A DNA stretch of 46,081 nucleotides from Planctomycetota bacterium (lineage in GTDB: Bacteria > Planctomycetota > SZUA-567 > H5-PLA8): the NCBI GenBank assembly GCA_026692735.1, contig JAPLOD010000051.1:1-46081 (forward strand), in the 5' to 3' direction. Positions 3,433-36,927 of this stretch are shown here, piece after piece; position 1 is the stretch's first letter, and each line of letters begins with the position of its first letter. The translations under genes were made by a program, and so were the position numbers. Below the pieces are notes generated by a model. It was not told the origin of the DNA and searched no databases. It saw only the letters and a list, made by a program, of their open reading frames with translations.

Positions 3433-3512
3433 AACCACGAAGAGCACGAAGGACCGGACGTGGCGAGAGGGGTGTGTGGATGTCTTCTTCCATTCTTCGT
3501 GTTCTTCGTGGT
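3433..3512. repeat. Palindromic 9-mer family, copy B
   Basis: aaccacgaagagcacgaag ... ttcttcgtgttcttcgtggt. Confidence 0.88.
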
Positions 3513-9860: not shown

Positions 9861-9975
9861 TAGTTCGTAGTTTGTGGTTCGTGGTTCTTGGTTCTTGCGT
9901 CGGCGGCGTTGAAAACTGGGCGGGGCGGCTGCAAACGCGGGAAACTACGAACCACGAACGCCGAACCAAGAACTA
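9861..9975. repeat. Inverted heptamer arrays
   Basis: tagttcgtagtttgtggttcgtggttcttggttctt ... aactacgaaccacgaacgccgaaccaagaacta. Confidence 0.85.
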
Positions 9976-11236: not shown

Positions 11237-11296
11237 GGCGTTATGCGCTTTCTCCCGCTTGCTTGCCAGCTAGGATGGAACACAAAATGAAGAACC

Positions 11297-11337
11297 CAAC
11301 ATCAACAATCCACAATCCAAAATCCAAAATCCCCAAT
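11297..11337. repeat. Heptamer array (CAATCCA-type)
   Basis: caacaatccacaatccaaaatccaaaatccccaat. Confidence 0.85.
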
Positions 11338-11346
11338 GGGACGCTC

Positions 11347-11414
11347 ACCACGAAGAACACAAATAACAATTCGCACAACCGCTGCCGTACAATGTTCTTC
11401 GTGCTCTTCGTGGT
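11347..11414. repeat. Palindromic 9-mer family, copy C, overlapping the signal peptide of the downstream gene
   Basis: accacgaagaacac ... ttcttcgtgctcttcgtggt. Confidence 0.85.
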
Positions 11415-14400
11415 CCATTTTGCACTTTGCATTCCGCTCAGCGGCATGCTCCGCGCCGGTGAGCCGGCAGTGCCGGCCTCCGCTGTGCGGGTGGAAGCGG
11501 CGGAGAACAAGGTGACCGTCTCTCGCGGCCCGCTCACACTGGTCTTCGATCCGTCCGGAAAGGGCTTCGTCACGTCAGCAAAGCTGGGCGATGTCGAGGT
11601 CTGCGGCGCGCCCGAGGCCGGCAGTGCCGGCATCCCCCTTTGCGGACTGTTCGCGTCGCTGGCTGTTCATGGCGAAGGGGCCGGCCCGCTGGAACCGTTA
11701 CGAGGCAAGGAGACTGTCGGCCAGACGTTGGCGACTCGCATTACAGGCAGCGTGGTGGATAGACCGCCGGGCGCGCGCGTCGAGATCGCCGGGACGGTTG
11801 CCTTCGAAGGCATCGGCGTTGCCCCGTTCACCGTCCGCATTGTGGTTCCAGAGAGCGGCCCCGCGATCGTGGCTTCAGCCGAGATGGAGCTGCCCGAGCG
11901 CGCGAAGAGCGCGTGCCTCACCGCATTCGGTCTTGCGCTCCCGCTCCGGCTCAATCTCCACCCGGACTCCGGGATGCAATCCAAGCGGGACAGTAAGACG
12001 GCTGCCGCCGCGATATTGCCGCGTGCCGGAACGACGATCCCCGAGATTCGCTGGCTGGTCTGTCAGCAGGACCAGACGAGCGTGTGGGGCCCCATGCTCT
12101 GGTCGCTGGCGGGGATTCGCCAGGCGACGCCCACCTCCTGTCAGGTCTGGGAGGCATGGAGCACGCAGAACCCGCCCTTCATTCTCCAACATCACACCGT
12201 CCACCCCGGCTGGATGGCCGTGGCGGACGGCCGCGTTGCTGTTGCGGCGGGGATGCCGGTCGTGCCGGTTTCCGCTTTGGTTATCGAGACAGTCGCACCC
12301 AAGGAAATCTATGTGGACAGCCGCGCCAAAGTCTTGCGCGTCTGTTTCCAGTCTCCGTACTGCCGTCCGCTGGACCTGTCCTCAGCCCCGGCGAAGCTCT
12401 CCGCGGGCCCCGCCTATCTCTTCGTCGAAGCCGCTCAGGGAAACACACGGAACGCGGATGACTACCGCGCCCCCCGCAAACGGCCGGCGCTTGCAGCCAC
12501 CGGCGAAGCGCTCGCCAAACTGCCGCCGACGCAGTGCAACTTCGGCACCATGAAGTCCCTGCCACCGGAGGTGAAAAAGGACCCGCCGCTGGCTCCCGCC
12601 GATCCGGAGTTCGCGTCCCACGAGCCGGGTTCCGCGACCGAGATCGGGATCTGGGTGGATGAGCCGTGTGGCGTCGGCCTCGAGTCATTCCCTGTTACCC
12701 GGGGCATCCCGCTCAAGCGCGGTGTTCTCAAGGACGAGAAGCCGGCAGTGCCGGTTTCCGCTAAAGCCGCGCTCTTGGATGCGGCGGGAAAGCCGGTGCC
12801 CTGTGTTTCCAGGGCGGTTGCCTTCTGGCCGGACCGCAGCATCAAGTGGCTCCTGCTGGACTTTCAGACGACCTTGAAGGCCGGCGAGGGCGCCAAGCTG
12901 AAGCTTGTGGTAGGTGACAACGCGGCGCCCGGCCCCGTTGCGAATCCCCTCAAAGTCTCGGAAACCCCCGCGAACGTCTCCGTTGACACCGGAAAGCTCA
13001 AGGCGACCTTCGCCAACCAGGGCGGAAAGCTTAGTCTGACGATTGGCCTCGACCTCAACGGCGACGGCAAGGTGACGGAAGACGAGACCATCATCAAGCC
13101 GGGGCCCGAGGTCTTCGGCTGCACGTTCAGCCACATTGCCGATTCTGAGCATTATCCTTCGAGCACCTGGCTGGACCCGGGCGAGCCCGACCCGGGCGTC
13201 CCGGAGGTGACGGAGCTGAAGGTCGAGGAGCAATCGCCCCTCCGCGCAGTGGTGCTCGTGCGCGCGAATCTCAAGCATCGGCTGCTCGCCTCGACCATTG
13301 AGCAGAAGCATCGGCCCCAAGTGGGTACGCCGGTGACGTTACGTTTTCACCTCTACGCGAACTCCGCGATGGTCAGGCTCCAGCACACCTTCATGTTCGC
13401 CGGCGACGTGAGATTCGATTTCCTCCGCGAGCTCGGCGTCCGGCTGCCGCTTGCGGCGTCAGGCGCTCAGAAGGTTCGCACCTCGCTGAACGGCGTGGCC
13501 TTGGAGCGGGCGCGCGACGGCGAGAGCGGCGTGCTGCAGGAAAACGCGGACTCAGCCGTCGCCTGGCCGGCAACGGGGTGGGGTGGGGCGCAGACGAATC
13601 CACGCGGGCACGTCGCCGATGGCTGGCTGGATGTCTCAGGCGAACGCTGGGGCGTCACGGTCGGGGCAGCGCACATGCGGGAGCGGTTCCCTCAGGAAAT
13701 CCATGTGGACAAGGACGGCATCTGGACGCATTTCTACTCGCCACGCTCACCGCCGATGGACGTGCGGCGCTATGCCTTCAAGTACGGCGACGGCGAATCC
13801 ACATCCACCGGTTTTGGCTCCGCCTTTGGCGCGCTCCGGACCCACGAAGCGTACTGGTTCTTCCACCCTGGCGGCGAGCAGGCGGCGAGAGGCGCACTTC
13901 ACGTCCAGGAAATGCTCCACCCTCCGCTCGCCCGCGCGCGTCCGCGCTACGTTGCCGACACGCTCGCTCTGGGCCATGTTGCGGAGCATGGTGCCGCTAC
14001 CAACGATCAGCATTACGACAACGTCCTCTACCATCTTCCGCGCATGCACCGCCACAACCGCGACTTCTGGCGCTGGTTCGGTTTCTGGGACTTCGGCGAC
14101 GAGGTGCAGGTGTACAACGCCGGCCGCCAGCGCTGGGACTTGGACGACGGCCGCTACGGCTGGTACAACAACGAACCGGTCCGCGACTACAACTACCACC
14201 TTGCGTTCCTGATGACGGGGAATCGCCGCATCTGGGAGGCTGCGGAGCCGATGTCCTACCATGTCTATGAGGTGGACGTGCGGCACGCCAATCCCCAGCC
14301 CTTCATGAGCGCCGCCGGCAGCTTGAGCAAGCAGGTATACGACCATTCGACCACCGGCGGCATTGACCTCTGCGGCCGCCGCCACAACTGCCAGCATTGG

Positions 14401-15168
14401 TCCGACGGCTACTTCGGTCCCCGCGTCGGCTCGCCGCCCGGCTTTCGCCTCTGTTACTACCAGAACGGCGACCCTGTGATGCGCGAGTACCTTGAGCGCA
14501 TCCTGGCCGCCGCCATGAAGACACGCCGCAGTCAGTACATGAGCGCGGACGGGGACGAGGCGGTCCTGTGGGCCATGCTGATGGGCTACGAGATGACCCT
14601 CGACCAGAAGTACCTCGACCGCATCAACGGTTACGTCAACTGCGAAGTGGAATTCGCCAAGACGCACAACGGCATCCCTGCCGCCAAGGCCAACTGGGAC
14701 TGGGCCACGAACACACCCGGCGCGCCGCCCGAAGAGCCCAGCGATGGCTTGTGGATCTGGTCGTTCGGCGGCCATCTGGCCTTCATCGAGATCGCTGATC
14801 TCTTCGGCGACCCGGCTCTGAACGCAATGCTCCAGAACTGGCTGCTCACGCTGGAGGGCTTCGGCCCCGACAAGAAGCGGCGCGAAGAATGGTCCAACCA
14901 CATGGCTGCCTGCCCGTTGCTGGCTCACTACTACCGCACCACGGGGGACAAACGGGCGCTGGAGTGGTTCCAGAAGCGCGCCAAGGGCTTCCACTCCGGC
15001 ATCCCCAAGGATGCGCCCGCAACCGACCTGGCGACGCAGGTCATGGAGGACAGCCTTCCCGCCTACACTCCGAACGACGGCTACGGCTGGGTCTACACGA
15101 CGACCACCTTCTGGTACGTCGGTATCCCGGCGTGGCAGGGCGCACTCCGGCAGCAGGCGGGGAAATGA
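11392..15168 (+). CDS. Large secreted PcRGLX/YetA-like (PL26, exo-rhamnogalacturonan lyase-like) protein
   Basis: FPVTRGIPLKRGVL...AVAFWPDRSIKWLLLDF RIFT-barrel-type N-region; (a/a)n-type C-region with WSDGYFGPRVGSPPGFRLCYY, HMAACPLLAHYY. ATG at 11392 gives a signal peptide; track start is 11263. Confidence 0.68.
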   Translation: MFFVLFVVHFALCIPLSGMLRAGEPAVPASAVRVEAAENKVTVSRGPLTLVFDPSGKGFVTSAKLGDVEVCGAPEAGSAGIPLCGLFASLAVHGEGAGPLEPLRGKETVGQTLATRITGSVVDRPPGARVEIAGTVAFEGIGVAPFTVRIVVPESGPAIVASAEMELPERAKSACLTAFGLALPLRLNLHPDSGMQSKRDSKTAAAAILPRAGTTIPEIRWLVCQQDQTSVWGPMLWSLAGIRQATPTSCQVWEAWSTQNPPFILQHHTVHPGWMAVADGRVAVAAGMPVVPVSALVIETVAPKEIYVDSRAKVLRVCFQSPYCRPLDLSSAPAKLSAGPAYLFVEAAQGNTRNADDYRAPRKRPALAATGEALAKLPPTQCNFGTMKSLPPEVKKDPPLAPADPEFASHEPGSATEIGIWVDEPCGVGLESFPVTRGIPLKRGVLKDEKPAVPVSAKAALLDAAGKPVPCVSRAVAFWPDRSIKWLLLDFQTTLKAGEGAKLKLVVGDNAAPGPVANPLKVSETPANVSVDTGKLKATFANQGGKLSLTIGLDLNGDGKVTEDETIIKPGPEVFGCTFSHIADSEHYPSSTWLDPGEPDPGVPEVTELKVEEQSPLRAVVLVRANLKHRLLASTIEQKHRPQVGTPVTLRFHLYANSAMVRLQHTFMFAGDVRFDFLRELGVRLPLAASGAQKVRTSLNGVALERARDGESGVLQENADSAVAWPATGWGGAQTNPRGHVADGWLDVSGERWGVTVGAAHMRERFPQEIHVDKDGIWTHFYSPRSPPMDVRRYAFKYGDGESTSTGFGSAFGALRTHEAYWFFHPGGEQAARGALHVQEMLHPPLARARPRYVADTLALGHVAEHGAATNDQHYDNVLYHLPRMHRHNRDFWRWFGFWDFGDEVQVYNAGRQRWDLDDGRYGWYNNEPVRDYNYHLAFLMTGNRRIWEAAEPMSYHVYEVDVRHANPQPFMSAAGSLSKQVYDHSTTGGIDLCGRRHNCQHWSDGYFGPRVGSPPGFRLCYYQNGDPVMREYLERILAAAMKTRRSQYMSADGDEAVLWAMLMGYEMTLDQKYLDRINGYVNCEVEFAKTHNGIPAAKANWDWATNTPGAPPEEPSDGLWIWSFGGHLAFIEIADLFGDPALNAMLQNWLLTLEGFGPDKKRREEWSNHMAACPLLAHYYRTTGDKRALEWFQKRAKGFHSGIPKDAPATDLATQVMEDSLPAYTPNDGYGWVYTTTTFWYVGIPAWQGALRQQAGK
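12255..12280 (-). repeat. Reverse-orientation copy of the 21-bp coding repeat (VVPVSAL)
   Basis: gccggtcgtgccggtttccgctttgg. Confidence 0.78.
12741..12768 (-). repeat. Reverse-orientation copy of the 21-bp coding repeat (AVPVSAKA)
   Basis: gccggcagtgccggtttccgctaaagcc. Confidence 0.82.
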
Positions 15169-18391: not shown

Positions 18392-18600
18392 CCGGATGAA
18401 ATTGCGTCTTCGGACATAGGGTTGTGTGGAATTGCGATCAGTAGCGATAAGTAGCGATCAACGGCTATCCGCCACAATCCGCCGCGATATGCATGCTCAC
18501 CGGATATACGACACGCGAATTCGCGTTTTCGGACATAGGGTTGCGTAGAATTGCGAACAGTAGCGATCAGTAGCGAACAGTAGCGAACACTAGCGATCCG
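18392..18600. repeat. Duplicated intergenic element with 10-mer (CAGTAGCGAA-type) units
   Basis: ttcggacatagggttgtgtggaattgcgatcagtagcgat at 18409 and ttcggacatagggttgcgtagaattgcgaacagtagcgat at 18528. Confidence 0.88.
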
Positions 18601-23321: not shown

Positions 23322-23405
23322 CGCGTGAACCACGAAGAACACGAAGGCAGGACAAGGAGTCACACAACGAAAGGTGTATCCTGTTCTTCGTGGCCTTCGT
23401 GGTTA
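23322..23405. repeat. Palindromic 9-mer family, copy D
   Basis: gcgtgaaccacgaagaacacgaaggcaggacaaggagtcacacaacgaaaggtgtatcctgttcttcgtggccttcgtggtta, close to copy A. Confidence 0.92.
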
Positions 23406-23468: not shown

Positions 23469-23570
23469 ATTGGCTCTTAGCTATTGGCTCTTGGCTATTG
23501 GCTCTTGGCTATTGGCCGCTGACGCGCCGTGGCGCCAATAGCCAGTAGCCCATAGCCAGTAGCCGCCAGG
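23469..23570. repeat. Inverted heptamer arrays (TTGGCTC/TTGGCTA vs CCAATAG/CCAGTAG)
   Basis: ttggctcttagctattggctcttggctattggctcttggctattgg ... ccaatagccagtagcccatagccagtagcc. Confidence 0.9.
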
Positions 23571-28702: not shown

Positions 28703-28759
28703 AACCACGAAGCACACGAAGCACAGAACAGTCTCCTGTTCCTTCGTGTTCTTCGTGGT
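28703..28759. repeat. Palindromic 9-mer family, copy E, between convergent genes
   Basis: aaccacgaagcacacgaag ... ccttcgtgttcttcgtggt. Confidence 0.88.
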
Positions 28760-34446: not shown

Positions 34447-36870
34447 CTACTTCGCCACCTCGGCGCGCTTGCGTAGCATCTCGCGCTGGCGCTTCAGCTC
34501 CTCGTCCTTGCGCGCCTTGCGCGTGGCGAGCATGTCCTCTTCGCTCACGAGCTTCGTCAGCGCCTCGATTGTGTCGCCGAGGTCCTTGTGGGCCTTGAGG
34601 AGGACCGCGGGCTCCCACGTCCAACTGATGAAATCCATGCCGGTGACCTCATCGGGTATCCGCAGGACGGCCTTGGCCTTGTCGAGAAGGTCCTTGGCCT
34701 TGTCGGCGAGCGCGGCGTCCGTCTTGCGCTTCGCTTCGAGCGTCTCCACGTAGTCGCGCAGGACGTAGTGGCTCTCCCAGTCTTCGATGCCGTCGCGGAT
34801 GTTCTCAAGACGCACGGAACTGAACGGACCGTCAGGCCCCGGGTAAAAAAGGTTCCCGTCGCCGTTGTAGACCATGCTGCTGCCGAATGCGCCCGGCGAG
34901 TGCGGTGTCTCCGGCCACTTCTTGCCGTTCTTGGGCTGGTTGAACTTCCAGATGTTGTAGCAGTAGTACTCGAAACCCGTCGGGCCGAACTTCCAGGTGA
35001 GCCAGAACAGAACGCGCGACGCGACCAGCGGGTCCTCCATCTGGACGTTTGGGCAGGGGAGCATCGGCCCCGCGGCCACGTACCAGAAGAACTTCTCGCC
35101 TTTCTCGCGGCAGCGCTGGATCATGGCCGGCGTGTCCTCAGCCGAAATGGCATAGGTGTGGCCTTTGCCCGCCTTGTAGTCAATCTGGGGATCGAAGATG
35201 TCTATGATGCCTTCCAGCTCCGGCCGCGGGTAGCTGCCGCCGATCATGATCAGCAGCTCCGGGCACGTCTTGCGGATGCTGTCCGACCGCCGCCGCATCT
35301 CGTCCCACTTGTTGGTTTCGTCGCCGATGTAGACGAGCGCCTTGTCAATCAGCCCCAGTTCCTTGACCTTGTCGTACCGTTCCTTGAGCTTGGCCGGATC
35401 GCCCTTGTAGTTGCCGGAAAGGTAGATCGTCTGCGCGCCGCGCTTGACGCAATACGGGATGTCCTCGAGTGACGGCGAGAGCGTGTCAGCATACTGCTCG
35501 GTCGGCGTGAAACGGTGGTCCAGGAGAAAGTCCACGTACTTGCGTTTCAGCTCAGGCGTGACCGTTCCGTAGTATTTCCGGATCTCGTCCCAGCAGGTCT
35601 GCCCCATTGTCTCGAAGTTCCACTGCTCCGGGATTCTGTAGTTCCAGACACGGACGGTCAGCGTGAGGTCGCGGGGCGGCGCGTTCTTGGCTTTGACATT
35701 GATCGTTCCCGCGTACGAGCCGCCGGGCGTTTCCGGCTTCGTGCGTACAGTGAACCAGAAGGGCGTGGACATCTGGAGCGGGCAGTCCATGGGCTTGTCC
35801 CACACCAGCGGGTCCGGCAGGACGAAGTTCTTCCCGTGGAAGTACCAGTCCTTGATCTTCGGGTTGGGGACCATCTGGAACATCTCTTCGCCGTGGCATG
35901 CGATGTCTTCCTTGGGGATCTTCGCGCCGCTCTTCGCGTCCACGAGGTCCGTCCATTCGAAGCAGACTTCCTGCAGCGGTTCGACAGTCGGATAGACCAC
36001 GACCTGGAAGCCTTCGAACTCGTTCCGCGCCATGCAGAGCGCGTAGCTTTCCTCGAACGGGCCCCGGAAGCGGAAGCGTGTGCTCTGGTCGCAGATCCGC
36101 TCGAGCGTGTGGGTCATGCCAACGAGGTACGGCTTGTCGAGCGGCGCGAAGTCGAGCACCAGCCGGGGCCGCTTGTCCTTGTCCGCATGCTGCGCCGACG
36201 GGATGTCAATCTCGGCGGTGTTCGGGAAGCGCGTGTCACCGAGAGCCATGCCCTGCAGAGCCAAACCGTGATTGGCTGACGCGTCGGCGAGCCATTTCCT
36301 CGCGGCCGAAGTCACGTTGAAGTCCATCCATTTCCCGCCATCGGGCACGCCGAGGAACTTGTACTTGTGCGGAAAGTACTGGCCGTTGAACTCCCAGAGT
36401 TCGTAGGAGTCCAGCACGCCGCGAGGGCGTCCGCGGCCGGAGTCGCTCGTCGTGTCGAGCGTTCCGCCCGGCTCTTTCCACGGTTTGCCGGCCGACGCGT
36501 TCGTCCAATCCGCGTCCGCACCCCAGGGCTCCAGGACTTCGCGACAGGCGGTCTCCGCGATCATCCGCAGCTTCTGCGCGGCAGGCACGAAGACCTCCAG
36601 GCGCGCCTGCGCCAGTTTCTTGGTCTTCAGCGCCTCGGGGATCTCGAACCGGATGAGGATGCTGTTGCTTGTCCCGCGCAGCGCCAAGGCCCCGGCGTCC
36701 GTCTGCTTCGGCTTCTGCGCTTTCCCGCCCCACAACGTCACGGCGCGGCAACCGGCGTACCCCTGGTTGCCTTCCTGCAGAACGACCGTCTCCGCCCATG
36801 CTGCCGACACGCAGACGCTCGCCATCGCCAGCAGTAGCGCGCCAAATGGTTTCACCACGAAGAACACGAA
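34447..36870 (-). CDS. Secreted DUF4091-type glycoside hydrolase-like protein with DNRLRE-like N-terminal domain
   Basis: GALLLAMASVCVSAAWA signal region; SILIRFEIPEALKTKKLAQARLEVFV; C-terminal NLFYPGPDGPFSSVRLENIRDGIEDWESHYVL; 5' boundary approximate (track start 37098). Confidence 0.75.
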   Translation of the reverse strand, partial: FVFFVVKPFGALLLAMASVCVSAAWAETVVLQEGNQGYAGCRAVTLWGGKAQKPKQTDAGALALRGTSNSILIRFEIPEALKTKKLAQARLEVFVPAAQKLRMIAETACREVLEPWGADADWTNASAGKPWKEPGGTLDTTSDSGRGRPRGVLDSYELWEFNGQYFPHKYKFLGVPDGGKWMDFNVTSAARKWLADASANHGLALQGMALGDTRFPNTAEIDIPSAQHADKDKRPRLVLDFAPLDKPYLVGMTHTLERICDQSTRFRFRGPFEESYALCMARNEFEGFQVVVYPTVEPLQEVCFEWTDLVDAKSGAKIPKEDIACHGEEMFQMVPNPKIKDWYFHGKNFVLPDPLVWDKPMDCPLQMSTPFWFTVRTKPETPGGSYAGTINVKAKNAPPRDLTLTVRVWNYRIPEQWNFETMGQTCWDEIRKYYGTVTPELKRKYVDFLLDHRFTPTEQYADTLSPSLEDIPYCVKRGAQTIYLSGNYKGDPAKLKERYDKVKELGLIDKALVYIGDETNKWDEMRRRSDSIRKTCPELLIMIGGSYPRPELEGIIDIFDPQIDYKAGKGHTYAISAEDTPAMIQRCREKGEKFFWYVAAGPMLPCPNVQMEDPLVASRVLFWLTWKFGPTGFEYYCYNIWKFNQPKNGKKWPETPHSPGAFGSSMVYNGDGNLFYPGPDGPFSSVRLENIRDGIEDWESHYVLRDYVETLEAKRKTDAALADKAKDLLDKAKAVLRIPDEVTGMDFISWTWEPAVLLKAHKDLGDTIEALTKLVSEEDMLATRKARKDEELKRQREMLRKRAEVAK

Positions 36871-36927
36871 GACAGGACATGAATTCAAGAAACGTTGGTC
36901 ATCCTTTTCTTCGTGGCCTTCGTGGTT
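36853..36927. repeat. Palindromic 9-mer family, copy F, overlapping the start/signal region of the DUF4091 gene
   Basis: caccacgaagaacacgaagacaggacatg ... ttcttcgtggccttcgtggtt. Confidence 0.9.

Follow-up and report, generated by a model that had tools for sequence, protein, structure and literature searches.

A dispersed palindromic repeat as the putative signal-peptide core of a PL26-like gene in a planctomycete

A PL26-like gene and the palindrome at its 5' end

A palindromic repeat lies at the start of a long PL26-like gene in the window (the whole 46,081-nt stretch of DNA analysed here), raising the question of whether a repeat arm can act as the secretion signal of an enzyme. The initial annotation had proposed that it does, with one arm read from ATG 11392 as a ready-made hydrophobic core and the opposite arm as a charged peptide. 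From sequence comparisons, we read the palindrome as a REP/RPE-like element that has been repeatedly exapted into putative Sec signal peptides. The features that bear on this reading are collected in Table 1.

Table 1. Features of the PL26-like gene, its leader, and the family copy before the GH123-like gene (window positions)
Feature	Positions	Strand	Evidence or remarks
PL26/PcRGLX-like gene, putatively exported enzyme	11287..15168	+	Pfam, PDB, gene calls, purifying pattern against L032
Likeliest start ATG	11287..11289	+	Weak AGGA at 11272-11275, 11 nt upstream
7-nt AATCCAA-type tandem array	11296..11337	+	Encodes PTSTIHNPKSKIPN, basic n-region
Palindrome left arm ACCACGAAGAACACAAATAACA	11347..11368	.	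In-frame TTKNTNN(N), basic; one 9-nt unit shorter than 75-bp siblings
ATG, start proposed in the initial annotation	11392..11394	+	TTG at that site in the family consensus
Palindrome right arm TGTTCTTCGTGCTCTTCGTGGT	11393..11414	.	Consensus intact; in-frame FFVLFVV
Hydrophobic core FFVLFVVHFALCIPL of putative signal peptide	11395..11439	+	Hydropathy at 87th percentile among 152 N-termini
PcRGLX N-terminal RIFT barrel domain (PF19501)	12691..12852	+	Pfam, above cut-off
PcRGLX central beta sandwich (PF21345)	12952..13458	+	Pfam, above cut-off
PcRGLX C-terminal alpha/alpha toroid (PF21346)	13921..14289	+	Pfam, above cut-off
Family copy before GH123-like gene	36854..36926	. (gene on -)	In frame FVFFVV; adjoins signal peptide KPFGALLLAMASVCVSAAWA

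Three PcRGLX Pfam domains support the PL26-like identity, and in the PDB the enzyme matched nothing but PcRGLX structures (5xqo, E 1.9e-27). By its domains, the protein appears akin to the PL26 exo-rhamnogalacturonan lyase PcRGLX, which has the same three, but it carries about 430 additional N-terminal residues that are conserved in its two closest orthologues, L031 and L032, both from planctomycete MAGs. Against L032, 1216 codons were aligned at 74% identity, and the substitutions by codon position (210/170/550) suggest that the gene is under purifying selection.

The palindrome consists of two 22-nt arms that are 86% complementary around a loop of 24 nt, and its RNA fold was calculated at -20.4 kcal/mol (z = -3.95). 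The 9-mer TTCTTCGTG with up to one mismatch occurs 36 times in the window compared with 8.9 +/- 3.1 in shuffles, and of its clean units about 1.3 lie in the left arm and two in the right. Across the genome, CTTCGTGNTCTTCGTGG is matched exactly 77 times and its reversed control not once. The palindromic 9-mer repeat annotated at the start of this gene is indeed present. Its 9-nt units are stop-free in the frame of the gene, the 5' arm giving TKNT and the 3' arm FVLFVV, and the element in frame therefore codes for a basic and then a hydrophobic segment. The charge ascribed to the opposite arm holds for this TKNT-type basic peptide and not for the HEEHEE type, since the frame gives TTKNTNNN instead. 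ATG 11392 opens MFFVLFVVHFALCIPLSGMLRAG, in frame with the 1258-aa protein, and FFVLFVV makes up half of the sole hydrophobic stretch ahead of the conserved part. The remaining HFALCIPL was considered as a piece of a second repeat and rejected, as its heptamer TTTTGCACTTTGCA has no further copy in the 217 kb sampled; the annotated hydrophobic core is thus only partly repeat-coded.

In the leader, AATCC heptamers are followed by the palindrome and then by HFALCIPLSGMLRAG, and this AT-rich repeat DNA has a GC of 0.46 versus 0.66 in the gene. Read from ATG 11287, the leader is MKNPTSTIHNPKSKIPNGTLTTKNTNNNSHNRCRT-MFFVLFVVHFALCIPL-SGMLRAG, in which a core of 15 residues follows a long, basic n-region. 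The orthologues are built differently: L032 has the textbook signal peptide MNRLLAMAGVLILAAAGAGYAAG behind GGGAGGA, L031 has a hydrophobic N-terminus of its own, both are without the repeat, and exact CTTCGTGNTCTTCGTGG is absent from both genomes. Alignable homology begins directly after the repeat-coded stretch. Because the orthologues lack the repeat and homology starts only beyond it, we conclude that the leader in the source genome is different and repeat-built; the ordinary hydrophobic leaders that both orthologues carry at the same place agree with a secretion signal at this position.

A dispersed family and its recurrence at other N-termini

The source genome is a 9.1-Mb draft of 1014 contigs in which CTTCGTGNTCTTCGTGG with up to two mismatches matched 202 times, versus 16 for the control. 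The motif occurs in 41 of 399 genomes of the phylum, among which the source genome is richest by far. Arm pairing gave 48 two-armed copies, some of them overlapping pairings of one element, mostly 71-77 bp long within a family range of 54-100 bp. Genes called with a home-made finder based on codon usage placed 36 of 40 two-armed copies in intergenic regions. Alignment with flanks assigned the copy at the PL26-like gene to a 75-bp subfamily, with the left arm short of one 9-nt unit, and its hairpin is weaker than those of its siblings (-20 versus -27 to -36 kcal/mol). The same alignment, in a test for MITEs and target-site duplications, showed clear inverted arms and element ends too diffuse for duplications to be called. 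Four more intergenic copies of the family lie in the window, at 2034-2107, 3434-3512, 23329-23403, and 28704-28759.

We also detected a 75-bp copy in frame within a gene for a ManC-like mannose-1-phosphate guanylyltransferase (L046 1469-1543, G000:C387). This insertion is missing from all nine of nine relatives, and homology continues on both sides of it, so translation through a copy is tolerated in this family, a behaviour shared with Rickettsia palindromic elements (RPEs).

To find repeat-coded N-termini, arms were tested for downstream open frames, which were then compared with called gene starts. An arm in the FVxFVV frame was found in five called N-termini: the PL26-like gene, LptE (L047), ApbE (L068), L081, and a GH123-like gene (37098, -). 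In the sixth arm-containing N-terminus, L136, the arm is read in another frame and is followed by a Met. The F frame was thus used in 5/6 N-termini including the arm versus 15/47 with the start downstream (Fisher p = 0.024), though the sample is small and p rises to 0.12 once the two weaker cases are removed. The internal ManC copy was excluded from the six, and the 15/47, counted by hand, corresponds to the one third expected by chance. As judged from hydropathy and from the orthologues, three of these cases are firm: PL26-like, LptE, and ApbE.

LptE (PF04390) is the strongest case of a repeat-coded leader. This lipoprotein is encoded by a single copy in the source genome and was detected in 31 of the 41 genomes searched. 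Here its N-terminus reads MNTDERRSSIVNRQSSIIFVLFVLFVVDTGG followed by C, and all 19 relatives listed have ordinary, non-repeat leaders ending at a conserved Gly/Ala/Ser-Cys. REPs are known in Planctomycetes, sometimes at the N-termini of ORFs, and many of those at annotated N-termini may be untranslated (PMC3733652), which gives weight to a case such as LptE, where the Cys is fixed. Three types of repeat are pieced together in the leader (L047 1440-1560, G000:C415): one like GATGAACACAGA, GTCAATC heptamers, and three 9-mer units of the TTCGTGCTC type. The gene upstream encodes a C-terminal peptide nearly the same as in relatives, so misassembly does not account for this junction.

In ApbE (PF02424), RIPFLLGLFVFFVVNTAVA followed by GEPQRF takes the place of MIRIFSMTLAALAITASAAES followed by EFQRF in a relative with 52% identity; the arm supplies FLLGLFVFFVV ahead of NTAVA and GEP, and homology to that relative begins just after it. 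The FVxFVV arm is the sole candidate signal-peptide core in both LptE and ApbE, and no downstream start in either retains a signal peptide. In the glycosidase-like L081, the arm probably forms the signal-peptide core as well; this protein has a downstream Met and no Pfam or PDB matches. The coding arm alone is present in LptE and ApbE and alone intact in L081, and the loss of the hairpin in these three, like its weakening in the PL26-like gene, with the coding arm kept fits selection for the coding arm without proving it. The GH123-like gene was rejected as a full case: the last bases of the arm may supply its GTG start, from which an ordinary signal peptide, MKPFGALLLAMASVCVSAAWA, is read without the arm. 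Among the arm-carrying loci examined in other planctomycete genomes, there was no clear signal-peptide case, and several F-frame matches there were natural internal protein sequence.

Translation start and competing explanations

Upstream of ATG 11392, the frame stays open through TTG 11263, ATG 11275, and ATG 11287. Because ATG 11392 has neither a Shine-Dalgarno sequence nor a basic n-region and sits in the hairpin stem, the start proposed there is doubtful. Only ATG 11287 among the candidate starts has any Shine-Dalgarno match, though such 4-mers are common by chance and this one does not exceed the chance level; in the genome at large, a Shine-Dalgarno sequence is not recognisable for about half of the called genes. 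Inspection and hydropathy give a more normal n-h-c layout from ATG 11287, with an unusually long n-region, and we infer from these features that translation probably starts there rather than at 11392. The idea of a ready-made secretion signal is partly supported: the ordinary leaders of the orthologues and the recurrence in LptE and ApbE speak for it, the proposed start is doubtful, and part of the core is not repeat-coded.

We consider it likely that the palindrome is a dispersed REP/RPE-like copy that inserted into the PL26-like gene, took the place of its 5' end, and supplies a putative signal-peptide core. Under this scenario, translation would run from 11287, SecYEG would recognise the core FFVLFVVHFALCIPL, and signal peptidase would cleave near LRA/GE or ASA/VR. 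Such insertions may survive because signal peptides require hydrophobicity and not a given sequence, and the weaker hairpin beside an intact coding arm would fit selection for translation through the palindrome. That the family has repeatedly donated Sec signal peptides and replaced the ancestral leaders of several envelope genes, the widely conserved LptE among them, is a broader proposition from the same comparisons, to which we give an even chance.

The palindrome could instead be an untranslated 5' leader, with translation starting at GTG 11410 or ATG 11446, which would exclude the repeat, and the hairpin acting only on mRNA stability or initiation. The mostly intergenic two-armed copies, the reports that REPs at annotated N-termini are often untranslated (PMC3733652), and the frame across other copies, which is often open by chance, are all consistent with this explanation. 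The downstream starts, however, have no Shine-Dalgarno sequence and yield at best MVHFALCIPLSGM, whereas the orthologues have signal peptides, and in LptE and ApbE they leave none, so we regard an untranslated leader as unlikely.

It is less probable still, and in our view improbable, that the insertion broke the leader and left the enzyme cytoplasmic or poorly exported, as a recent step toward pseudogenisation. The lack of a good Shine-Dalgarno sequence and the AT-rich repeat DNA in place of the ancestral leader would suit such a loss, but the frame of 1258 codons is unbroken, its substitutions follow a purifying pattern, a strong hydrophobic segment persists, and the broadly conserved single-copy LptE has the same architecture. 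Unrelated contigs joined at a repeat would be the least probable origin, very improbable even though the draft is fragmented and repeats are common points of misassembly: the end of the gene upstream of LptE and the homology on either side of the ManC insertion indicate that those junctions, at least, are real.

Known elements and other repeats in the window

The family resembles RPEs in behaviour: both are short, dispersed palindromes found in frame in protein-coding genes, and here the palindrome is dispersed through the genome and the ManC copy is an in-frame insertion missing from homologues. Unlike RPEs, which measure about 150 bp (reviewed in PMC10969869), its copies are about 75 bp, mostly intergenic, and provide an arm as a putative signal-peptide core; a link between RPEs and signal peptides was not found in the open-licence literature. 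REPs and REPINs, tagged with GTAG or CGTC, are likewise short palindromes that lie between genes and number in the tens, but the arms described here are made of 9-nt units. No GTAG or CGTC end tag was conserved in the flanked family alignment, with GTAG in a minority only, and none of the six Y1 transposase genes (PF01797) in the genome is flanked by an intact copy. The family is therefore not a tagged REP, and mobilisation by a RAYT was rejected.

Whole signal peptides have been described as gained or lost through N-terminal insertion or deletion, with no transposable elements found near such N-termini by ISEScan and with random N-terminal additions judged unlikely to work (PMC5952966). In contrast to those cases, a dispersed repeat is here the visible source of the N-terminus, and we found no report of repeat-derived bacterial signal peptides in the open-licence literature. 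A repeat arm encoding a hydrophobic core offers a concrete, testable source for the gain or swap of signal peptides by insertion, and the pattern suggests that bacteria can build secretion signals from selfish-type repeats. It is also a warning against taking repeat-coded N-termini (FVFFVV, TKNTKN) for annotation errors and trimming them by default.

Other short repeats were observed in the window. At 23469-23564, (ATTGGCT)n is followed by (AGCCAATA)n, in the layout of the 9-mer family with a different, 7-mer unit, and an inverted pair of 7-mers, TGGTTCG and CGAACCA, lies at 9863-9973. Tandem arrays of 10-mers, GCGATAAGTA and GCGAACAGTA, occupy 18434-18458 and 18553-18596.
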